From assembly GCA_016871115.1 (NCBI GenBank), contig VFZP01000008.1, positions 1-37,569 on the forward strand: 37,569 nt of DNA, in the 5' to 3' direction. The position numbers and the translations under genes were made by a program. Of this stretch, positions 12,348-37,569 are shown piece by piece; within the stretch, counting starts at the first letter, position 1, and the number at the start of each line of letters is the position of its first letter. Under the pieces are notes generated by a model. That model worked only from the letters and a program-made list of their open reading frames with translations. It was not told the DNA's origin and searched no databases. The DNA is from Acidobacteriota bacterium (GTDB taxonomy: Bacteria; Acidobacteriota; Terriglobia; Bryobacterales; Bryobacteraceae).

Positions 12348-15300
12348 GAACGGCCGTTGCCTTTTTCTTCATCGCGCTGGCGGCATACGCGCAAACGAGC
12401 GGCACCATGAGTGGCGCGGTCTCCGATAAATCCGGCGCGCGCGTGCCGGGCGCCAAGATCGTTACGAGCAATGGAACAACGGGTGAGAAACGCGAGACGG
12501 TCTCCGCCGCGAACGGTCAATAAGTGTTGCCGTTCCTCCCGCCCAGCGAATATCGCATCGAAGTCACACTCGCTGGTTTTGGCCAAGCCATCGCCAAGGC
12601 TGTTCTCGGCGTCAGCGAGCGCATTGCTGTCGATGTCACGCTCAAGCCGGCGGCGGTTAGTGAAAAGGTAGAGGTCACGTCGGCGGCGCCGCTGCTGCAA
12701 ACCGAAACGACCGCCTTGGGCCGCGTGGTAGACGGTGCGGCTGTGAAAGAACTGCCACTCTCCAGCCGCAACTTCACTCAGTTGCTCGCGCTCTCTCCTG
12801 GAACGTCGGCTCCACTCAATGACGCCGGAGCGCTCGGCCGAGGTACACAGAACATCTCCTCCGGAGGCGCGCGGCTAGGCTCGAACTCCGTCTACATCGA
12901 TGGCGTGGATGCGATCAATATCCACAGCGGCACGTCGAACGAAAACGCTTTCGGCTCGAACGGCCTGGTGGCGCCTTCGCCGGAAGCCATCCAGGAATTC
13001 AAGGTGCAAACCGGGCTCTACGATGCGCAGAACGGGCGCAGCGGCCGCGCGGCGGTGGTGTTGGTCACTCGCTCCGGCGGGCCCGAGTTTCACGGCATGG
13101 CTTATGAGTTCTTCAGGAATAATGCGCTCAACACCAACAGCTTTTTCTTTAACTCCACTGGACAGGCGCGACCGGTGCTGAAGCAAAATCAATTCGGCGG
13201 CAACCTCGGCGGACCGGTTCGGCGCGATCGCACGTTCTTATTTTTCTCCTATCAGGGCACGCGCCAGCGCAATGGACTGTCCGGTTCCAGCTCATTGAAC
13301 CTGCCGCAGATTCCGCTCGACCGGTCGCGCGCCTCGCTCGGACGTGCGTTTGCGGGATTGCGGGGTACGCGCGGCGGGCCAACCATTGCCGCCGATGGCT
13401 CGAACATCCATCCCGTGGCGACAGCGCTGCTGAATCTGAAGCTTCCCACTGGCAGCTTCGTGATTCCCTCGCCGCAGCGGGACGTGGCGGGGGTGAACTA
13501 CGCCGTTTCGATCCCCGCGCGCTATGAAGAGAATCAGTACATCGCCAACGCCGACCATCAGGTGAGCGCCAGGAACCGGCTGATGTTCAAGTCGATCATT
13601 TCCGCCCAGCCCACCTTTCAGCCCTTGCCCACGGCCACCATCCCGGGTTTCGGCACGACGCAGAACTTCAAGAGCCGTATCATGAGCCTGACCGATACGC
13701 ACGCTTTTTCGGCGGGCCTGATGAACGAGGCGCGCACGGGCTTTTCCCGGCTGTTCGGAGTGGTGCAACAGGAAAATCAGATTCCGCTGTCGTCGATCGG
13801 CATGAAGCGGTTGAACTCAGCCGATTTTGCCGACATCCCACAGATCAGCGTGACCGGCGTTTTCAGCGCGGGCTACAGCATCAATGCCGACCAGGGCGTC
13901 TTTCAGGACACCTTCCACTTTGTCGACACGCTCTCTTGGATCAAAGGCAAGCACCAATTGCGCACGGGTGTGGAAATGCGCCGTTATGTGGATGACTACT
14001 ATCCGAACAATCGCTTCCGCGGCACGCTGACCTTCCAGAGCTTCGGCGACTTTCTCACCGGGCTCTCCGGCGCTCCGCTGGCACAAGGGGGAAACGGAAC
14101 CGGGTTCAGCAACATCAACTCGTCCAGCGTCGCGAGCGGCGTTACCGACCGCATGGATCGCATCACCGATTTCGCCCTGTTCGTGCAAGACGACTGGAAG
14201 GTGAGTTCGCGATTGAGCGTCAACGTCGGCTTGCGATGGGACTATCTCGGCTACGCCGTCGACGCCCTCGGGCGCAATGGCCGCTTCGATACGCGCCTCT
14301 ATGCGCCGCCGCCGGTTGGCGGATCTACGAGTGCGGGGTTCGTGCAGAGCTCCGCGTCCCAGACGCCGCTGGCGGGCATTCCGAAAGTGAGCCCGACGCT
14401 CGTCGACCGCGAGCTCACGCGCAACTTCGCTCCCCGGTTTGGCGTAGCCTGCCGCTTCACGGAGAAACTCGCAGTGCGCGGCGGCTACGGAATCTACTTC
14501 GACCGGCTTTCGAATCAGTTGGGACTGCTCGCCGCGCTTTCGCTGCCGGGTTACGTGCGCACCGATCTGCAGGGCTCGGCCAACAGCTTCGCCACGCTGC
14601 AGGATCCGTTTCCGGCGCTGCCGCAGCGCGCGGCGTTTCCCGTGATGCCGTTGCTGCACTCGCCTCCTTACACCACGGACCGCCCGGCGCTTGGCCTGAA
14701 CTCCGTCGATCCCACCGCGCGCACGCCGTATCTTCAGCAGTGGGGATTGAATATCCAACATCAGTGGAACACGGCAACACTGCTGGAAGTGGGCTACCAG
14801 GGAACCAAAGGAACCCGGCTGGCCACCAGTCGCTTGATCAATCAGCCCATCCTCGCCAGCGCTGAGAACCCGGTCAACGACCAGACTGCCAGCACGGCGG
14901 CCAATGCGCAGCTCCGGGTGCCGCATCTCGGTTTCTCTCCCACCGGGCTCGTCTGGCAGGAGACGTCCACGGACTCGCGCTACAACTCCCTGCAAGCCAG
15001 CGTCACGCGCCGCTTCTCGAAGGGCCTGCGCCTGCTGACGGCGTACACGTGGGCGAAGTCGCTCGACAACAACTCGGGCTCAGGCACCGGTACATCGTTC
15101 ACGCAAACCGATGTCGATCAACTACGGTCCGCGCTGAATCGCGGCGTATCGGACTTCGACCGCACGCACCGGGTGGTGGTGAATTTCAGCTACAGCATCC
15201 CGAAGTGGGGATTCGCGCTGAACCGGACCGCGTTTGGCAAGCGGTTCTTCGATGGCTGGCAGGTGGCGGGAGTCGCTGTCATGCAGAGTGGCACCTCCGT

Positions 15301-15709
15301 CAGCATTCTCGATACAAGCGGCGCGGCGTTCTTTGGAACCTCAAACAGCCGCGCCAGTTGGGCCCCCGGCGCGACGGTGGAGACGGCAAAACGCACCGGA
15401 CGCGCGCAGGACCGGCTGAACGAGTACTTCCACAAAGCCGCCTTTGTAAGAGCCGGCAATCTCCGGGGCGATGCCGGCCGCAACATTCTCCGCGGACCCG
15501 CGCAGCGCAATATGGATCTTTCGGTGAACAAGCGATTCCCCATCAACGACAGAGTGTTCGCAGAATGGCGGACGGAGCTTTTCAACGCGTTCAACCTGAC
15601 GAACTTCGCCAACCCCGGCGGCAGCATCACGGCGGCGACTTGCGGTGTGATCAGGAACACCACCGGCAATCCGCGGGTCATCCAGATGGCGTTGAAAATC
15701 GGCTTTTAG
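12344..15709 (+). pseudogene. Oar-like TonB-dependent receptor, interrupted by an early TAA
   Basis: A frame of 1122 codons with TAA at 12521-12523. Upstream is a signal peptide (MRTAVAFFFIALAAYAQ) and the first half of a carboxypeptidase-regulatory-like domain (SGAVSDKSGARVPGAKIV to AANGQ). The frame resumes VLPFLPPSEYRIEVTLAGFG, so one codon, Tyr in relatives, has become TAA. Then follow the plug domain (LPLSSRNFTQLLALSPG, SVYIDGVDAIN, IQEFKVQTGLYDAQNGRSG) and a large beta-barrel ending ALKIGF. A GTG immediately after the stop could restart translation but without a signal peptide. The family imports large ligands across the outer membrane. The start overlaps the stop of the S9-like hydrolase. 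Confidence 0.85.
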
Positions 15710-15735
15710 GGGCAGCCCTGTCATTTAGACTTCAC

Positions 15736-15766
15736 CAAAACAGGCTATTCTGTTTTGCAATAGCCT
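15736..15766 (+). promoter_or_regulatory. Two mutually exclusive hairpins between receptor genes
   Basis: Two perfect 8-bp stems overlap. Stem 1 is CAAAACAG (15736-15743) with CTGTTTTG (15750-15757), loop GCTATT. Stem 2 is AGGCTATT (15742-15749) with AATAGCCT (15759-15766), loop of nine bases. They share bases 15742-15743, and the 3' arm of stem 1 lies in the loop of stem 2, so only one can form. Neither is followed by a clear T-tract. It sits in the 98-base gap upstream of the second receptor, whose SD (AGGAG, 15796-15800) lies 30 bases on. Confidence 0.55.
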
Positions 15767-15807
15767 CTCCCCGTTTTGCGAAGTTCATTTTTCCTAGGAG
15801 TGCGTGC

Positions 15808-18800
15808 ATGCTCAAAGTCCACCGGCTTTTTGTAGGTTTCTTTCTGATGGCGCTAGTCGCCTTTTCCCAAGCGGACGCGAATAAGGGGCAGATCTCCGGC
15901 ACCATCTTCGATCAGAACCAAGCGGTCATCCCGAACGCCAAGGTGAGGATCCGGAACGTAGCCACGGGCCTTGAGCGCGAGTTGACCAGTAACGAAGCGG
16001 GCCAATATCGGGCGGTGCTGCTCGACGCCGGCGAGTACACGATTACGGTCAGCAGCGCCGGGCTGGCGGATGCGAAGTACCAGGGTGTGGTGGTGGCGGT
16101 GGGTACGGCGGTACCGCTCGATGTCGTCATGCAAGTGCAAGCGACGACCACGGTGGTGGAAGTGGGCGCAACGTTGCTGGCTATTCAGCCTTCGCCCTCG
16201 GCCACATTGAACAGCAACGCGATCACCAATCTGCCGATCAACGGACGCCGCTTTCAGGATTTCGCGGTGTTGACGCCTTCTGTGCAGGTGGACCCGCAGC
16301 GCGGCCAGCTTTCGTTTGCCGGCCAGCGTGCGATCAACTCCAACATCATGCTGGATGGCGCGGACTACAATCAGCCGTTCTTCGGAGGCATCCGCGGCGG
16401 GGAGCGCTCGAACTCGATCATCACGGTTCCGCAGAGTGCGATTCAGGAATTCCAGGTGGTGACCACCGGGTACACGGCCGAGTACGGCCGGTCAACGGGC
16501 GGCGTGCTGAACACGATCACCAAGTCCGGCGGCAACGCCCTGCATGGCGATGCGTTTTATCAGGTGCGCCACAAAGAGCTCGGCGCCAAGGATCCGGTGC
16601 AGTTGATTGCTTCGCTTGAGACGCTGCAGCAATATGGCGGTTCGGTGGGCGGGCCCATCAAGTCCAACCGGCTTTTTTTCTTTGGGGCGTTCGAAGGGCA
16701 GAAGTCGAAAACGCCGCGCCAGGTGCAATTTGCGCAGTTGCTCGGACGCGCCGCGACGCCAGCCACGCAAGAGGCGCTGAACTTCTTCCGGAGCGAGGAA
16801 AAGGGCTTTCGCCAAACCAACGATGCCTACGCGTTGACCGCCCGCGTGGATCATCAGGAAACGGCAGGACACCGCCTCACGCTGCGCTACAACTTCTCCG
16901 ACGCGAATGCGGAAAACGCCGTCTCGGTAGGCGGTTCGCTGAGCCCGTTCACCAACCGGTCTTTCTCCAACGATGGCATCGAGAAAAATCGCATCCATAA
17001 CGGAACGGCGCAGTACACGCGCATCCTGTCGCCGTCGATGGTGAACGATTTCCGTTTTGCTGGCAGCCTCGAGGAGCGCCCGCGGCTTTCCAATTCCGCG
17101 TTGCCGCAGGTGGCCGCGGGCCCGATTGGCACGTTTGGCGCGCGCAACTTCCTTCCCACTATCCAAGACGACCGCCGGTTGCAGTTTAACGACGGATTGA
17201 CCGTCACGCGCGGGGCGCATTCCGTGAAGGTGGGCTTCGACTACAACTACCTCACCACGGGCCAAGCGTTCGGCTTCAATCAGTTCGGCTCGTTTTCGCT
17301 CGCCGGATCGAACCTCGATACGCTACTCGACATTCTCGGCACGGGCGGTGCGATCGCCAACCGCTTTGACTCGCGCGACGTGACCTATTCCCGCCAACTC
17401 GGCAACCTGACCGCGGCCTTCAAGATGCATCAGGCTGCCCTGTTTGCTCAGGATAGCTGGCGCGTGAACAACAAACTGACGCTGGACTTCGGCCTGCGCT
17501 GGGAGGGCCAATGGAATCCAGAGGCCGAAGGCGGCAACCAGTCCGTGATCGATCGCGTGAAGGGTTTCCGTTTTCCTAACGGCATGACAGTAGACCCGAC
17601 CCGGATCAACGACTCCACCGCGCAGATCGCGCCGCGTTTCGGCTTTGCCTACACGCCTTGCTCTTGCGCACGCCGCGCCGTGGTGCGCGGGCATACGGGT
17701 CTGTTCTATGCCTCGACGCCGTTGATCGTGTTTGCCGGTCCGTCGAACAACTTCCGGCTTCCGCCGGGCGATGTCTCCATCACGCTCGCGCCGACGGCCA
17801 CGCAGACGGTCTACCAGCAACTGCTCGCCGGGGGTGTGGACCTCAATCGCACGCCGCTTGGCCAACTGCCGGTAATTCCGGTTGAGACAGTGCAGCGCGC
17901 TTCGGCGCTCGCGCTGGGCGGCACGGCTCGCGACCCGTTTGCCGGCGCGGGCCTGATCGTGCAAGCGGCTGACTTCCGCAATCCGCGCGCCTTCCAGGCG
18001 GGACTCGGCATCGATCGCGAGTTGTTCGACAACTTTGTGGCGGGCATTCAGTTCAACCTCGTGAACACGGTGTACCTGCAGCGCAATCACGACTACAACT
18101 TGCCATTGCCGCTGGTCCGCCCCGGCGACGCTTCACAGCGTCCGACCTATGCGCTGCGCAACGCCCCGGTGTTGCAGACTCGTCCGATCCAGTCGCTAGG
18201 CGCCATTACCGTGCGTGCTTCCTCGGCGCGAAGCCTGTATCGCGGTCTCACGCTGCAATCGCAGTACCGCACGCGCAAAGCGCAGTTCGGCGTCTTCTAC
18301 ACGTGTTCGCAGAACTATTCCGACGACGATACTGAACGCGATACCAGCGGCTTCAACTATTCGGACCCGCAGAACTTCCGCATCGACTATGGCTACTCGC
18401 GCCTTGACCTCCGGCACCAATTCAACAGCTACGCCACTTACAACCTGCCGTTGGGCTTTCAAGTGTCGGGCATCCTGCGCGGGCGTAGCGGCCTGCCGAT
18501 CAATCCGATCACGGGCACCGATGCCAATGAAGAGTTCGGCAACAACGACCGGCCGTTCCGCGCTCCCGGCGTGCCGCTTGAACGCAATTCATTCCGCAAT
18601 CGCGCGGTTTGGAACAACGACTTCCGCGTGTTGAAGAACTTCAGGCTCGGCGGTGATGCCCGGCGTGCGCAGTTCTCGGTTGAGTTCTTCAATATGCTGA
18701 ACCTCGACAATGTTCTGTATTCAGGCGCCAACGGCGGTTTGTTCGGCGGTACGTACGGGCTAGGTCTGAATGCGGCCGGACAGGCCGTAGCGGTGGACCC

Positions 18801-18903
18801 GCGCTTCCTGCGGCTGCGTCAGCCGGACGGCAGTTACGACCGCAACAACGCGCAGTCCGGTTCGCCGATGCAGGTGCAGTTGGGCCTGCGGTTCTTCTTT
18901 TAG
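15808..18903 (+). CDS. Oar-like TonB-dependent receptor (intact)
   Basis: A 1031-residue outer-membrane receptor. ATG 15808 has a good SD (AGGAG, seven bases upstream) and begins a signal peptide (LFVGFFLMALVAFSQA). The frame is open far upstream but that part is out of phase with the previous receptor and is not coding. Domains in order: a carboxypeptidase-regulatory-like beta-sandwich (about 25-110, GTIFDQNQAVIPNAKVRI), the plug (LPINGRRFQDFAVLTPS, NIMLDGADYNQPF, EFQVVTTGYTAEYGRSTGG), and a TonB-dependent beta-barrel ending LGLRFFF. It resembles the receptor just upstream in architecture but is not a close copy. Such receptors in Acidobacteriota are thought to take up oligosaccharides, peptides or other large compounds. 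Only 15 bases separate its stop from the convergent TonB-fusion gene. Confidence 0.92.
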   Translation: MLKVHRLFVGFFLMALVAFSQADANKGQISGTIFDQNQAVIPNAKVRIRNVATGLERELTSNEAGQYRAVLLDAGEYTITVSSAGLADAKYQGVVVAVGTAVPLDVVMQVQATTTVVEVGATLLAIQPSPSATLNSNAITNLPINGRRFQDFAVLTPSVQVDPQRGQLSFAGQRAINSNIMLDGADYNQPFFGGIRGGERSNSIITVPQSAIQEFQVVTTGYTAEYGRSTGGVLNTITKSGGNALHGDAFYQVRHKELGAKDPVQLIASLETLQQYGGSVGGPIKSNRLFFFGAFEGQKSKTPRQVQFAQLLGRAATPATQEALNFFRSEEKGFRQTNDAYALTARVDHQETAGHRLTLRYNFSDANAENAVSVGGSLSPFTNRSFSNDGIEKNRIHNGTAQYTRILSPSMVNDFRFAGSLEERPRLSNSALPQVAAGPIGTFGARNFLPTIQDDRRLQFNDGLTVTRGAHSVKVGFDYNYLTTGQAFGFNQFGSFSLAGSNLDTLLDILGTGGAIANRFDSRDVTYSRQLGNLTAAFKMHQAALFAQDSWRVNNKLTLDFGLRWEGQWNPEAEGGNQSVIDRVKGFRFPNGMTVDPTRINDSTAQIAPRFGFAYTPCSCARRAVVRGHTGLFYASTPLIVFAGPSNNFRLPPGDVSITLAPTATQTVYQQLLAGGVDLNRTPLGQLPVIPVETVQRASALALGGTARDPFAGAGLIVQAADFRNPRAFQAGLGIDRELFDNFVAGIQFNLVNTVYLQRNHDYNLPLPLVRPGDASQRPTYALRNAPVLQTRPIQSLGAITVRASSARSLYRGLTLQSQYRTRKAQFGVFYTCSQNYSDDDTERDTSGFNYSDPQNFRIDYGYSRLDLRHQFNSYATYNLPLGFQVSGILRGRSGLPINPITGTDANEEFGNNDRPFRAPGVPLERNSFRNRAVWNNDFRVLKNFRLGGDARRAQFSVEFFNMLNLDNVLYSGANGGLFGGTYGLGLNAAGQAVAVDPRFLRLRQPDGSYDRNNAQSGSPMQVQLGLRFFF

Positions 18904-30475: not shown

Positions 30476-30910
30476 ATGCACAAATCAGCTCTGCTCTTAT
30501 CCCTACTAGTCCTGCCCGCCGCGGCTGTGGCTGGACCGCCCATCGCGGTCACGGTCAAGCCCGATTGCGCCAACACCAGCGCGCCGAAGATCGTTGGCTC
30601 TACCGTGCGCGTCACGCTCAGCTCACTCACGCTCGGCTACTACGTGAGACAAAAAGGTGCGTAGGGTCTCCGCTACTTCTTTACCGAAACCCAATCAGCG
30701 ACGGTCACCCAACTGGATCACACTGCTTGGCAAGCCGCCACGGGCTTTGCCCTGCTTGGCGGCAATTACAACCTCGCAGTCAAGACCCGCACCGGGCCAT
30801 CGGTCGCCTCGCCCAACATCCCTTTCGGCATCCCAGCCTGCGCCGTAGACCCCGACAATCCGAGTGGCGGCAAAGGATCCAACAAGAAGGACCCGGTCAA
30901 GGGGTACTGA
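30476..30910 (+). pseudogene. Small secreted protein, amber-interrupted
   Basis: A frame of 145 codons. ATG 30476 starts a clean signal peptide (MHKSALLLSLLVLPAAAVA). The mature part reads GPPIAVTVKPDCANTSAPKI and VRVTLSSLTLGYYVRQKGA up to TAG at 30662-30664, then continues in frame as GLRYFFTETQSATVTQLDHT, GFALLGGNYNLAVKTRTGPS and a Gly/Asn/Lys-rich end, to TGA at 30908. The continuation has clear protein character (alternating beta pattern, two Cys in the mature chain), so the TAG is a premature stop. No family is recognised. It is the first of three damaged genes for secreted proteins in a row on this strand. Confidence 0.6.
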
Positions 30911-32581
30911 TCCCACGCGTCTTGCCGGACTCGTCTTCCTCTGCAGTTTGTCGCCACTTTCATACGCCGGGCAGTTCCACTACGGCCTCGGCCGTAGCGG
31001 CAATTTGAAGGCCCGTGTGCCGAAGCCGCCGCAAATCCGCATCGGGCGCATCAATTTCGCCATTGACGTGAAGGACGGCACGGCGATGGCCGCGGCCGAA
31101 GCCGCGGTTATCGCCGCCACGCAGCCGCCCGCGCCGGCAACCTACACCCCGCCGGATCCGACGGCTCCCGCAACGCAACTCCAGGCTGCGCTCGACCAGG
31201 CCTTCCGCAACAGCTTCACCATCGTGCAGTCCAACGGCGAAGCGTCACTTCGCGTGGCCATCACTCGCTACACACCCGCCGAGTCACGTATCGATGCGCT
31301 GACGCAGAAGACCAAAGCGCCGGTCCTCAACCCCGACGGGACGCCGCAGGTCGACCCGCAAACGGGCATGCCTATCAGCGTCGACAAGACCATCGCGGTG
31401 GAGCAATGGTCGGCACGCGGTGTTCTGGCAGTGCGCGTGGAAGTGATCGACGCCAGCGGCGTGCTGCTGGAGGGCTTCGCCCCACAATCCACCGTGCGGG
31501 GTTCGCAGGTCATCTCCGTCGACCACCAGGACCGCGTGGACCGCACGCAGATCCCCACGCACGACCAGATTCGCGACAAGCTCATTGCCGAACTTGTCGC
31601 CCAGTTCGTGCCCCGCTACTGCCCGGCCCCCACCGAAACGGACGTGCCGCTCGCCGTAGACGAGGAACTCCGCCCCGGCAACAATCTCGCCAAAGAGGGC
31701 GACTTCCAAGCCGCCGTCAAGTCATGGCAGTCCGCTGTGATGAAGAAACCTGACGACGAGAATGAGGCGGACCGCGTTCACAACCTCGGCGCTCTTTATG
31801 AGGCGGAGGGCTACGACCGCCTGCTGCGCCGGGCTGACCCCGCCGAAGTGGAGAAGCATCTGGCTAAAGCCGCCCAGCAATACAAACTCGCGCTCGAAAA
31901 AGACCCGAAGGAAAAGAACCTCACTCGCGCGGCCGAGCGGGTGGCCAAGGCGCAGAAGCTGGTTGACGCCTTCAAGGATCTGGAGCAACGCCGTCAGCGC
32001 GCGCTTACGGCCAAGGCCAATCCCTCGGCGTGGCCGCCTGGGTCCCCGGCCGTTTCCAATCGCCTCCCGAATCCAAACCCGGCCGTAGACCCGGTGCCCA
32101 CCAACCCGGTGGTAGCCACCACAACGCCCACGCAGCCGCCAGTAGAGCCATACCCGCCGGCTCCTACCAACCTGGTTGCGGACGCCGACACGCAGGAGGC
32201 GCTCGACAACGCTCTCAAAGACCCCCGGCCCGATTCGCCCGCCGAAGACACGTCCGTCAATTCGTGCGGCTCCGCCTCCGTTCGGCCCCCGCCGCTTCCG
32301 GCGAGCTCAAGCAACAACTCGAGGCCACCGGACCGCTTGCCTACAGCCTCACCGCTCTGCAATCCAAGCGCGTGCTTTTTCAGGAAGCTCGTGACTGGGC
32401 AGCGCTCCAGCCCAAACTGGGCGTCTATCGCGACTCATTCGCCGCCTTCGCGCAAGACGGGAAGATTTCTCCCGATGAGCGTGTCGCGCTGCGAACGTTC
32501 GCGAAAAACCTTGGCATGACCGACAACGATGTCAAGTCCATCGAGTCGGCGCTCACCTTCACCGAAGCCGCGCCCCAATAG
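30910..32581 (+). pseudogene. Secreted TPR-containing protein, start lost and frameshifted
   Basis: The frame opens TRLAGLVFLCSLSPLSYAGQ, a signal peptide, but has no start codon. The preceding bases read TGATCCC where TGATGCCC would give an ATG overlapping the upstream stop, so one base appears lost. The body has an N-terminal beta domain (IRIGRINFAIDVKDGTAM, VAITRYTPAESRIDALTQ), a TPR region (NNLAKEGDFQAAVKSWQSAV, VHNLGALYEAEGYDRLL, KAAQQYKLALEKDPKEK) and a Pro-rich linker. Near 32258 the frame shifts by one base; the protein then resumes as QFVRLRLRSAPAASGEL and ends with a TerB-like acidic helix pair (FAQDGKISPDERVALRTFAK) at TAG 32579. Adding one base after 32258 rejoins it. Confidence 0.65.
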
Positions 32582-33566: not shown

Positions 33567-34673
33567 ATGTCACAAGCCACCACTAGCACCGCCGCAGGCC
33601 TGTCCGCGCAAATTGCCGCGGCGCAGGCACGGCTGGATGCCCATACGCGTGAGATCGTCAACTGGCATTTCTCGCCAGAAACGGGCTGCCCGTTCTGGCT
33701 CGACTACGCCGCCACTCAGCTCGGCTGGGACCCGCGCAAGGAAATCCAATCCTACCCCGACCTCGGCAAGTTCCCGCCCTTCCAGGACGAGTGGCTCCGA
33801 GGCGGCCCTGTGCGCAAATGGATCCCGCGCGGCCTCGCCGGCAAGCCCGCCTTCATCTTTGAAACCGGCGGCTCCACGGGCGTCCCCAAGTCGCGCGTCC
33901 AGATGGAAGACTTCCGCATCGACTACGAAAATTTCTCCGAAACCCTCCCCGATGCATGCTTCCCCACAGGCGCTGACTGGATCAGCGTCGGCCCCAGCGG
34001 CCCGCGCCGCCTGCGCCTCGCCGTCGAACACCTCGCGCAACACCGCGGCGGCATCTGCTTCACCGTCGATCTCGATCCGCGCTGGGTCATCAAGCTCATC
34101 AAATGGGGCGAGATCCAGATGGCCGAGCGCTACAAGCAACACGTCGTCGACCAGTCGCTCACCATCATGAAGGCGCACGAGAACATCAAGTGCATGTTCA
34201 CCACGCCGAAGCTCCTCGAAGCCATCTGCGAAAAGGTGTCGCTCGAAAAGCTCGGCATCGAAGGCATCTTCTGCGGCGGCACGGAAATGACGCCGCAGTT
34301 CCACCGCTTCGCCGTCGAAGAACTGCTCGGCCCCAACATCTATTTCGCGCCCACCTACGGCAACACGCTCATGGGCCTAGCCGTCCACAAGAAGCCGCTG
34401 CCGGAAGACAACTGGGCCATCATCTACTACCCTCCATCGCCGCGCGCCATGCTCGAAGTGGTGAACCCGGACAGACCCACTGAACTCGTAGGGTACGGAC
34501 AAACCGGCCGCGTCCGCCTCACCACGCTCACGCGCGAAACCTTCATTCCGCGCTTCCTCGAACGCGACGAGTGCGAGCGCGAAGCGCCCTGCGAACAGTA
34601 CCCCTGGGACGGCGTGCGCAACGTGCGGCCGTTCTCGCGGTTCAAAACCAGCGTCGTCGAAGGAGTCTATTAA
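33567..34673 (+). CDS. EhpF-like adenylate-forming enzyme (carboxylate activation)
   Basis: A 368-residue member of the ANL superfamily lacking the usual C-terminal subdomain, like EhpF of Pantoea D-alanylgriseoluteic acid biosynthesis and the LuxE group. The ATP-binding P-loop is FETGGSTGVPKSR (residues 98-110). Other conserved segments are FTTPKLLEAIC, IFCGGTEMTPQFHRFAVEEL, the adenine-binding APTYGNTLMG, and GYGQTGRVRLTT. It should convert a carboxylic acid to an acyl-adenylate, which the downstream dehydrogenase-like partner could reduce. ATG 33567 is used because of the adjacent GGAG; the open frame upstream is not conserved-looking. It is the first gene of an intact three-gene operon, three bases before the next ATG. 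The acid substrate is unknown. Confidence 0.75.
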   Translation: MSQATTSTAAGLSAQIAAAQARLDAHTREIVNWHFSPETGCPFWLDYAATQLGWDPRKEIQSYPDLGKFPPFQDEWLRGGPVRKWIPRGLAGKPAFIFETGGSTGVPKSRVQMEDFRIDYENFSETLPDACFPTGADWISVGPSGPRRLRLAVEHLAQHRGGICFTVDLDPRWVIKLIKWGEIQMAERYKQHVVDQSLTIMKAHENIKCMFTTPKLLEAICEKVSLEKLGIEGIFCGGTEMTPQFHRFAVEELLGPNIYFAPTYGNTLMGLAVHKKPLPEDNWAIIYYPPSPRAMLEVVNPDRPTELVGYGQTGRVRLTTLTRETFIPRFLERDECEREAPCEQYPWDGVRNVRPFSRFKTSVVEGVY

Positions 34674-34676
34674 GCT

Positions 34677-36107
34677 ATGCTGCACCTGCCCATCCTGCGC
34701 CAAGGCGAAGCCTACTATTCCGTAGACTCGGTCACCGCCAACCACCACCGCACCAAACAGCCGCTGGTGAAAATCAGCATGGCGAACTCCGGGCTCATTC
34801 GCCGCGATCTGCGTGCGCTCCCCGAGATCGCCTCCATGATGTCTGGCTTCACCTGCGCCGAGTTGATCGCGCTGTGCGAAAAGGCGTCCGATCATTTCTT
34901 CAACGCGACGCTCCCGTTGGGTGACGCCGAACAAACCCCGCAGGACTACATCGAGCAAACCTCCGCCACCACGGGCTCGCCCTGGGTGATGGTGCGCCGC
35001 AACATGGAAAAGATCGCGGGCGTCATGTCCAACATCTCGGGCGTGCTCCGCGGCCTCACGCGCAATCTCGACCTCTCGATCCTTGACCGTGGCCACGGCG
35101 AAGCCACCGGCGCCGTCGTCAGCTACTTCCGCCGCGGCGATTCGCTCGGCGTCGTGCTGCCTTCGAACTCGCCCGGCGTTCACTCGCTGTGGGTCCCGGC
35201 CTTCGCGCTCAAAACGGCGCTGGTGCTCAAGCCCGGCGCTTCGGAGCCGTGGAGCCCGTACCGCATCATTCAGGCCTTCATCCGCGCGGGCGCGCCGCCG
35301 GAGGCCTTCAGCTACTACCCCGCCGACCACGCGGGCGCGGGCGAAATCCTCCGCCGCTGCGGCCGCGGCATGGTATTCGGCGACGTGGGCACCATGAAGG
35401 CGTATCAGAACGATCCGCGCATTGAACTCCACGGTCCCGGCTGGAGCAAGATCACCATCGGCGAAGACATGATCGACCGCTGGCCCGAGTTCATCGACAT
35501 CATCGCCGCGTCGATCTGTGAAAACTCCGGCCGCTCCTGCGTCAATGCATCGGGCCTGTGGGTGCCCCGCCATGGCTACGCCATTGCCGAAGCGCTCGCT
35601 GAACGCGTCTCGAAGATCGCGCCACGCCCGGCCAACGACCCCGAAGCCGCCGTGTCGCCGTTTGCCGACGCGGGCGTCGCTTCGCGCATCAACGCGCTCG
35701 TCGAGCAGGGCCTCGCCGACCCAGGCGCCGAAGACGTCACGCTCAAATACCGCCCCGGCTCACGCCTCGCCGAACTCGAGGGCTGTTCCTACCTGCTGCC
35801 CACCATCGTGCATGTCGACTCGCCCGAGCACACGCTCGCCAACAAAGAGTACCTGTTCCCATTTGCCAGCGTCGTCGAAGTGCCGCAGCGCGAGATCCCC
35901 GAGATTCTCGGGCCCACGCTCGTGCTCACCGCCATCACGAATGACGACGCGTTCCGCCGCCGCCTGCTGACGGCGAACCACATCGGCCGCCTCAACTTCG
36001 GCCCCATTCAAACCAATCGCATCGTATGGGATCAGCCGCACGAAGGCAACCTGTTTGACCATCTGTACGCGCGGCGCGCGTTCCAGATGGCGCTACAGTC
36101 GACATGA
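34677..36107 (+). CDS. EhpG/ALDH-like acyl reductase
   Basis: A 476-residue protein of the aldehyde dehydrogenase superfamily. NAD(P)-binding features are VVLPSNSPGVHSLWVPAFAL and ALVLKPGASEPWSPYR (Lys185). The active-site Cys288 is in CENSGRSCVNASG, and GWSKITIGED corresponds to the region of the general-base Glu. The C-terminus has YLFPFASVVEVPQ and HIGRLNFGPIQTNR. In the Ehp pathway the adenylating EhpF is paired with an ALDH-family EhpG, proposed to reduce the activated carboxylate to an aldehyde; LuxC/LuxE works in an analogous way. Here the two genes are adjacent and probably coupled. An AAGGAG lies about 12 bases before ATG 34677. The TGA overlaps the start of the glycosyltransferase (ATGA). 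Confidence 0.78.
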   Translation: MLHLPILRQGEAYYSVDSVTANHHRTKQPLVKISMANSGLIRRDLRALPEIASMMSGFTCAELIALCEKASDHFFNATLPLGDAEQTPQDYIEQTSATTGSPWVMVRRNMEKIAGVMSNISGVLRGLTRNLDLSILDRGHGEATGAVVSYFRRGDSLGVVLPSNSPGVHSLWVPAFALKTALVLKPGASEPWSPYRIIQAFIRAGAPPEAFSYYPADHAGAGEILRRCGRGMVFGDVGTMKAYQNDPRIELHGPGWSKITIGEDMIDRWPEFIDIIAASICENSGRSCVNASGLWVPRHGYAIAEALAERVSKIAPRPANDPEAAVSPFADAGVASRINALVEQGLADPGAEDVTLKYRPGSRLAELEGCSYLLPTIVHVDSPEHTLANKEYLFPFASVVEVPQREIPEILGPTLVLTAITNDDAFRRRLLTANHIGRLNFGPIQTNRIVWDQPHEGNLFDHLYARRAFQMALQST

Positions 36108-37435
36108 AAATCCTCAGCATCACGGCCGGCGCAGGCAACATGTTTTGCGGCAGTTGCCTGCGCGACAACAATCTGGCGGGCGAACTCAAACGCCAGGGGC
36201 ACGACGTGGTGCTGCTCCCACTCTACACGCCCACACGAACCGACGAAGCCAACGCCAGCCGGCAGCAGCGCGTCTTCTTCGGCGGCATCAGCGTTTACCT
36301 CGAACAGCTTTCCCCGCTCTTCCGCTGGACGCCCAAATTCCTCGACAAGCTCTGGGACATTCCCGCCGTCATCCGCCTGTTCGCCGGGCGCGGCGTGGAC
36401 GTGGATCCGCAGTCGCTCGGCGCGCTCACCGTTTCGATGCTGGAGGGCGTGGCGGGCCACCAGCGCAAAGAGATCACTAGTCTCGTGGAGTGGTTGCGCC
36501 ACGAACCGCGCCCCGACGTGGTGACGTTGCCGTACACGCTGCTGATCTCGCTCGCCAAGCCGCTGCGCGAAGTCACCGGGTGCCCCGTCGTGTGCAGTCT
36601 CCAGGGCGAAGAGTTGTTCCTCGACGGACTGGTGGAGCCTTACCGCACGCAAGCCCTCGCGCTCGTCCGCGCGCAGGTGAAAGAGGCGGACGCCTTCATC
36701 GCCGTCAGCCACTATGGCGCGCGCTGCATGGCGGGCTACCTCGGCATTCCGCCGGAGAAGATCCACACGGTGCCGCTCGGCATTTCGATGGACGGCTACT
36801 CGCTCGAACGCCGCACGAAATCGGCCGCGCGCAACGTGTCATTCCTCGGCCGCATCGCGCCGGAGAAAGGCCTCGGCCATCTCGCCGACGCGTTCCATCT
36901 GCTGCGCCAGCGCAGAGCGGAGCTCGGCCCGCTACGCCTCGAAGCGGCCGGCTACCTGCCGCCAGAAAATAAGCCGTACCTTGCGGGCATCGAAAAGAAG
37001 ATCGCCGCGGCCGGCTGGTCTGGCGAGTTCCGCTACTGGGGCGAAGTCACGCGCGAGCAAAAGGCGCGCTTCCTGCAGAATGCTGACGTCTTCTCGCTCC
37101 CCTGCTCGTATGACGAACCCAAGGGCCTGCCTGTCCTCGAAGCCATGGCCTGCGGCGTCCCCGTTGTCGCTCCCCGCCGCGGCTCGTTTCCGGAGATGAT
37201 TGAGACCACTGGCGGCGGGCTGCTCGTCGAGCCCGATTCCCCCGCGGCCCTCGCCGAAGGACTCCATCAGGTGCTCTCCCGCCCCGACCTCGCCCTCAAC
37301 CTCAGCCGCCGCGCCTACGAAGGCGTTCGACGCCACTACACCCTGGAAGCCATGGCCACGCAAACTCTGAACATATATGCCCAGGCGGGGCGGGCTTCGG
37401 CCCGCGGCGACCTGCGGCCCGTGGAACAACGATAG
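36104..37435 (+). CDS. GT4-family glycosyltransferase
   Basis: A 443-residue GT-B retaining glycosyltransferase. The N-terminal acceptor domain starts MKILSITAGAGNMFCGSCLR, with unusual Cys residues in the Gly-rich loop. The donor domain has VSFLGRIAPEKGLGHLADAF, FLQNADVFSLPCSYDEPKGL and PVLEAMACGVPVVAPRRGSF, matching the EX7E motif of the GT4 family. It should transfer a sugar from a nucleotide-sugar to an unknown acceptor. It overlaps the ALDH-like gene by four bases, so it is translationally coupled. Whether it glycosylates the product of the reductase pair or just shares the operon cannot be told. The last 18 residues (QAGRASARGDLRPVEQR) are encoded across a REP-like palindrome, suggesting the element extended the C-terminus. 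Confidence 0.88.
   Translation: MKILSITAGAGNMFCGSCLRDNNLAGELKRQGHDVVLLPLYTPTRTDEANASRQQRVFFGGISVYLEQLSPLFRWTPKFLDKLWDIPAVIRLFAGRGVDVDPQSLGALTVSMLEGVAGHQRKEITSLVEWLRHEPRPDVVTLPYTLLISLAKPLREVTGCPVVCSLQGEELFLDGLVEPYRTQALALVRAQVKEADAFIAVSHYGARCMAGYLGIPPEKIHTVPLGISMDGYSLERRTKSAARNVSFLGRIAPEKGLGHLADAFHLLRQRRAELGPLRLEAAGYLPPENKPYLAGIEKKIAAAGWSGEFRYWGEVTREQKARFLQNADVFSLPCSYDEPKGLPVLEAMACGVPVVAPRRGSFPEMIETTGGGLLVEPDSPAALAEGLHQVLSRPDLALNLSRRAYEGVRRHYTLEAMATQTLNIYAQAGRASARGDLRPVEQR
37390..37405. repeat. GCGGGC-TTCG palindrome inside the glycosyltransferase 3' end
   Basis: GCGGGC and GCCCGC with a TTCG tetraloop, 30 bases before the stop codon. It is nearly identical to the palindrome at 144-158 and is therefore probably a mobile or spreading intergenic repeat that has been read into the coding sequence. 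Confidence 0.6.
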
Positions 37436-37477
37436 GCAAAGCAGCAGAGCGCACTTAGGTATTGTCTAGAAATAATA

Positions 37478-37507
37478 TTTTCATATAGAAATGTTTTGGC
37501 GTATACT
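37478..37507 (+). promoter_or_regulatory. Promoter in an AT-rich stretch at the right edge
   Basis: TTTTCA (37478-37483) and TATACT (37502-37507) are spaced by 18 bases, within an AT-rich island (37460-37508) unlike the surrounding GC-rich DNA. The -10 hexamer lies seven bases before GTG 37515. The AT-rich island could mark the end of an insertion element. Confidence 0.5.
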
Positions 37508-37514
37508 GGTTGCA

Positions 37515-37569
37515 GTGCCTGACGTCGCTGCTATCACCGTTCGCTTCGAAGCTCTGAAGACCGTTCTGG
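37515..37569 (+). CDS. Start of a protein, possibly a transposase (partial)
   Basis: From GTG 37515 the frame reads MPDVAAITVRFEALKTVL and runs off the window. Motifs of the type (I)xxRFEALKxVLDER are found at the N-termini of ISAzo13-type transposases, but only 18 residues are visible. An upstream in-frame ATG at 37491 would add MFWRILVA. An insertion element is plausible from the AT-rich upstream DNA, but this is a weak call. Confidence 0.35.
   Translation, partial: MPDVAAITVRFEALKTVL

Follow-up and report, generated by a model that had tools for sequence, protein, structure and literature searches.

To our knowledge, two-protein carboxylate reductases have been described in only a few antibiotic pathways. 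The Lux system of bioluminescence is also made of two proteins, a truncated ANL enzyme (LuxE) and an ALDH-fold reductase (LuxC), which together turn an acid into an aldehyde. Nocardia-type carboxylic acid reductases (CAR, A-T-R) likewise use ATP and NADPH to convert an acid into an aldehyde, the overall reaction that we propose below for a gene pair of Acidobacteriota. In the pathway of D-alanylgriseoluteic acid of Pantoea agglomerans Eh1087, the truncated ANL enzyme EhpF (PDB 3hgu and 3l2k) is followed by the ALDH-family protein EhpG, and the paper on the EhpF structure reportedly proposes that the two work by adenylation and then reduction. The ehp operon leads from chorismate through phenazine-1,6-dicarboxylate to griseoluteic acid, with EhpF to EhpO acting after the dicarboxylate (PMC3175449). 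In the grixazone pathway of Streptomyces griseus, the carboxylic acid reductase GriC/GriD, an AMP-binding protein with a partner reductase, activates the aromatic acid 3-amino-4-hydroxybenzoate as an acyl-AMP and converts it to the aldehyde (Suzuki 2007, as summarized in PMC10179220).

The window, which is the whole stretch of 37,569 nucleotides that was analyzed, carries three plus-strand genes near its end, the first two of which encode relatives of EhpF and EhpG. Gene A (33567 to 34673; ATG start, TAA stop) encodes an EhpF-like adenylating enzyme of 368 aa, gene B (34677 to 36107; ATG start) a predicted EhpG-like reductase of the ALDH family of 476 aa, and gene C (36104 to 37435; ATG start) a GT4 glycosyltransferase of 443 aa. 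Only 3 bp (34674 to 34676) separate A from B, and an AGGAG ribosome-binding-like site ahead of B lies inside the end of A. The sequence-only reading had proposed an intact operon in which the glycosyltransferase gene is coupled to the pair. Indeed, all three open reading frames between 33567 and 37435 are full length and free of stops, and the start of C overlaps the stop of B by 4 bp (ATGA), an arrangement typical of translational coupling. Compared with the nearest relatives, identity at third codon positions was 0.41 to 0.60 and protein identity 0.56 to 0.77 for the three genes. Together with orthologs in some 60 genomes of Acidobacteriota and in further phyla, this argues that the reading frames are not due to chance. 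Since third-position identity is below protein identity, purifying selection appears to act on all three genes. Upstream of A, no usable promoter or terminator signal came out of a sequence scan.

The relation of A to EhpF extends over nearly the whole protein, since EhpF matches residues 24 to 368 of 368 (145 bits, 2.8e-41, phmmer). The core ANL motifs are kept and are invariant or nearly so (P-loop ETGGSTGVPK, TYGNTLMG [YGNT], and ERD). The protein consists of the N-terminal domain only and lacks the C-terminal ANL subdomain: in the alignment it ends in EGVY, at the same point as EhpF, and G366, V367, and Y368 are nearly invariant among 103 sequences. Both the EhpF-like character of A and the missing subdomain had been read from the sequence beforehand, and these results bear them out. 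The Pfam AMP-binding match is weak (3e-05, under the curated cut-off), and it is the only one in the chain, with no carrier or reductase domain of the Nocardia-type CAR. The pair A-B thus differs from these enzymes in being two separate proteins and in lacking a carrier-protein domain or a reductase domain of the short-chain-dehydrogenase type.

Gene B matches the ALDH family (PF00171, 5e-16) and the ALDH found in the EhpG position of a phenazine cluster on the Escherichia coli plasmid NZ_CP076707 (24% identity, 1.7e-30), where it directly follows an EhpF-type gene; the assignment of B as an EhpG-like partner is therefore upheld. Other matches are ALDHs paired with A-like genes in Streptomyces, in Burkholderia, and in a haloarchaeon. 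The AlphaFold model built from 31 sequences (pLDDT 90.8) matches NAD(P)-dependent ALDHs. The predicted catalytic Cys288 is invariant in all the homologs compared, and the usual general-base Glu of ALDHs is not invariant across the B set, a combination fitting the reduction of an acyl thioester and not the oxidation of an aldehyde. The likeness to EhpF/EhpG hence covers full-length homology, the C-terminal end, the ANL motifs, and the ALDH cysteine. The differences are that A and B are only 34% and 24% identical to the plasmid homologs, that no phenazine genes lie nearby, and that the pair is embedded in a different pathway, present in several phyla, with a GT4 glycosyltransferase and a radical SAM protein. 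PHZA_PHZB (PF03284) had no match in the whole genome, in a search for which the control gave no match either; this agrees weakly with the sequence-only reading, which saw no phenazine genes.

One scan of genome contigs yielded 107 relatives of A. The best 80 of them came from Bryobacterales and other Acidobacteriota, from Vicinamibacteria, Blastocatellia, Planctomycetota, Poribacteria, and Sumerlaeota, and from two bins labeled Acidimicrobiia. Among the distinct A loci, 91 have 1.5 kb or more of downstream sequence; B is on the same strand no more than 6.5 kb away in 81 of these and no more than 300 bp away in 57. The sequence-only reading had staked its proposal on the pair being conserved together, and this is what the genomes show: among 297 acidobacterial genomes, A occurs in 60 (two weak matches left out) and B in 60, and they occur together in 58, with two genomes carrying A alone and two B alone (Fisher P = 1e-56, relatedness ignored). 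A, B, and C are all present in 57 genomes of 25 families, a near all-or-none pattern that holds even where the genes are unlinked. In the phylogenetic tree, 97 A sequences form a single clade, which a long, well-supported branch (2.76 changes per column; 100/99) sets apart from EhpF and the remaining outgroups; the branches of the outgroups are themselves long, and their order is not reliable. Given the long branch of the clade, its chemistry could differ from that of EhpF. One genome (G259; L116 on contig C7) carries A twice, the copies being 70% and 66% identical to that of the window, one followed by C and the other by B. Separately, an A homolog on a Streptomyces plasmid (L132, 5926 to 7011), labeled arylcarboxylate reductase, adjoins a type I polyketide synthase and has no ALDH partner in the annotated stretch.

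The co-occurrence in the 297 genomes and the contiguous clusters of many genomes indicate that the three genes A, B, and C belong to a larger pathway, present in near all-or-none fashion across several phyla. In other genomes the conserved neighborhood comprises two PQQ-type propellers, A, B, an Fe-dependent alcohol dehydrogenase, a third propeller, a radical SAM protein, a halogenase-like enzyme, a sodium symporter, C, a thioesterase, a LolD-like ABC ATPase, and an FtsX/MacB permease; a siderophore-type TonB receptor is often, but not always, part of it. Several genomes have most of the pathway in one cluster of about 15 to 20 kb, and three loci (L160, L161, and L163) carry nearly the whole set within about 18 to 20 kb. 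The radical SAM protein is HemN-like, with a CxxxCxxC motif and PDB matches to HemN and to the methyltransferase NocN. The flavin halogenase-like enzyme has its best solved matches in carrier-type halogenases such as ChlB4, PltA, and CmlS and carries a WFWYIP motif. The hotdog protein resembles YbgC and 4-hydroxybenzoyl-CoA thioesterases, and two planctomycete loci (L071 and L069) encode a PaaK-like ligase in addition. Three of these genes go together with A in the 297 acidobacterial genomes: the radical SAM gene occurs with A in 47 genomes and without it in 2, the halogenase-like gene in 42 and 2, and the PaaK-like gene in 30 and 7 (Fisher P = 4e-40, 3e-34, and 4e-18, respectively, relatedness ignored). 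No NRPS, PKS, or RiPP core enzyme was found in the pathway, and a crude pattern scan detected no acyl carrier protein. We found no description of such a cluster in the open-license papers searched, and the pathway appears to be undescribed, although its enzymes are of known kinds. An unannotated protein of about 200 aa, with motifs reminiscent of chorismate lyase, is encoded between the radical SAM and halogenase-like genes in L071 (15981 to 16619) and L090 (9933 to 10484). Chorismate lyase (UbiC) was considered from motifs seen by eye for a planctomycete protein of 213 aa but not confirmed, since neither Pfam nor the PDB gave a match and the AlphaFold model was too poor (pLDDT 39). The possible UbiC-like gene, which would supply 4-hydroxybenzoate, was seen in Planctomycetota and Sumerlaeota only.

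Taken together, these data make it probable that A and B work as a carboxylic acid reductase like EhpF/EhpG and GriC/GriD, made of two proteins and dependent on ATP and NAD(P)H. The acid is most likely aromatic, and the pair would serve an undescribed small-molecule pathway. By homology, A would adenylate the carboxylic acid. As it lacks the ANL C-terminal domain, the acyl group would then be transferred from AMP onto Cys288 of B, and not onto CoA, and B would reduce the resulting thioester to the free aldehyde, which the Fe-dependent alcohol dehydrogenase would probably convert to the alcohol. C may glycosylate a later intermediate or a lipid carrier. The pathway would also employ the HemN-like radical SAM protein, the flavin halogenase-like enzyme of the carrier/CoA type, the PaaK-like ligase, the hotdog thioesterase, and dedicated transporters. 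Three lines of evidence point to an aromatic substrate, most likely of the benzoate type: the characterized relatives act on aromatic acids; distant A-B pairs adjoin genes for DAHP synthase and aminodeoxychorismate synthase, or anthranilate-synthase- or phenazine-type genes; and the cluster includes proteins resembling PaaK, an aryl-CoA-type ligase, and 4-hydroxybenzoyl-CoA thioesterase. As far as the published description goes, GriC/GriD is the closer biochemical precedent for the putative reductase, with a context, phenoxazinone synthesis, that is unlike the pathway of A and B.

The neighboring genes could also be taken to mean uptake and catabolism, since a symporter, a TonB receptor, an amidohydrolase, and an HpcH/HpaI-like aldolase are found near the pathway in some genomes. 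A would then pass its acyl-AMP to CoA, an amine, or a sugar, and B would be an ordinary oxidative ALDH of a degradation pathway together with the alcohol dehydrogenase, the symporter, and the receptor. We regard this as unlikely because A and B adjoin each other even outside the clade, in biosynthetic clusters, the ALDH general base is not conserved in B, and A is devoid of the domain used for CoA transfer. A CoA ligase was also discarded as the first choice for the function of A, given the absent C-terminal domain and the presence of a separate PaaK-like ligase in the pathway.

As an alternative, A and B could be a fatty acid reductase of the LuxE/LuxC type, in which A would form first an acyl-AMP and then a thioester on the enzyme, B would reduce the fatty acyl group to the aldehyde needed for lipid synthesis, and C would build a glycolipid. 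The logic of a truncated ANL enzyme and an ALDH-fold partner is common to both systems. Moreover, the downstream LolD/FtsX-type transporters are often tied to lipids or lipoproteins, and 1 of 31 B proteins gave a very weak LuxC match (0.053). Such a function is quite unlikely for the pair. Neither LuxE (PF04443) against A nor LuxC (PF05893) against B gave a match at E ≤ 0.01, and membership of these families was rejected. The alignment shows no invariant cysteine near the C terminus of A, where LuxE would need one, which disfavors an acyl-enzyme of the LuxE type. The crude scan that found no acyl carrier protein and the aryl-CoA-type enzymes encoded nearby argue in the same direction.

The protein encoded by C has the two-domain architecture of GT4 enzymes (PF00534, 1.4e-30; PF13439, 4e-17) and an N-terminal GNMFCGSCLRDN motif, which is found again in related proteins. 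Of the 40 loci in the close clade (A 68% or more identical to that of the window), 38 have C after A-B. It is present in 68 of the 297 acidobacterial genomes and accompanies A in 58 (Fisher P = 2e-48, relatedness ignored). In family f21, of which 12 genomes were listed, A and C occur in exactly the same two genomes; families f24 and f15 behave in the same way, and in families f28 and f46 some genomes carry C without A. From this co-occurrence and the matching presence and absence within families, C most likely belongs functionally with A and B, also where the genes are not adjacent. That C is a mere passenger, a polysaccharide-type gene sharing a promoter with A-B in one lineage, is very improbable: GT4 enzymes are common and C is adjacent in just 1 of 41 loci outside the close clade, but its subfamily is present in 58 of the 60 genomes with A, even when unlinked, and in other acidobacterial and planctomycete clusters C lies within the same 15 to 20 kb as A and B.

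The genome of the window has most parts of the pathway, distributed over four contigs. One of them (C35) carries the radical SAM, halogenase-like, and PaaK-like genes, another (C6) the PQQ-type propellers, the Fe-dependent alcohol dehydrogenase, and the symporter. The ABC ATPase and permease genes, which follow C in many relatives, are at the end of a third (C377). On C6, an amidohydrolase and an aldolase read by eye from the sequence as HpcH/HpaI-like (L178, 3066 to 5283) lie between a propeller gene (PQQb) and the alcohol dehydrogenase gene, where other genomes have A and B. Downstream of C, the contig terminates in the end of a repeated IS-like element (37454 to 37569), with five more copies in the same genome at 96 to 99% identity over about 100 to 116 bp and one piece of 43 bp at 95%. 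The claim that the operon is surrounded by decay stood for one neighbor, an alpha/beta hydrolase gene (30113 to 29232, minus strand) that has an in-frame stop and is 63% identical to the intact gene of relatives such as L036. In the close relatives L033, L036, and L043, the intact ortholog is divergent and just upstream of A, whereas in the window about 3.4 kb separate the stop-bearing gene from A.

Elsewhere in the window, two large plus-strand open reading frames for OMP_b-brl_4/TonB-type barrels (12524 to 15709 and 15049 to 18903) overlap in different frames, suggesting tandem genes, possibly with a long spurious start. A DUF3313/TPR-like open reading frame (30864 to 32519, plus strand) overlaps another in a second frame (32030 to 32581), which looks like a frameshift in one gene. 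An MGDG synthase-like glycosyltransferase (PF06925; 21281 to 22381, minus strand) is unlinked to the operon.

For the system as a whole, we lean towards an undescribed, near all-or-none biosynthetic pathway of Acidobacteriota, Planctomycetota, Poribacteria, and Sumerlaeota, in which a carboxylate reductase, a HemN-like radical SAM protein, a halogenase-like enzyme, a glycosyltransferase, PQQ-type propellers, and transporters would produce a glycosylated, probably aromatic small molecule. The product may be exported and, where the siderophore-type TonB receptor is present, perhaps imported again. Class-based cluster finders might overlook the pathway, as no NRPS, PKS, or RiPP core enzyme was seen in it; A provides a clean marker gene for mining, and the uninterrupted cluster of L160, from a genome in one contig (G059), is a concrete target for heterologous expression. 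Little is known of the small-molecule chemistry of these phyla, where the distinct clade of 97 A sequences flags a pathway that a lineage either possesses or lacks.
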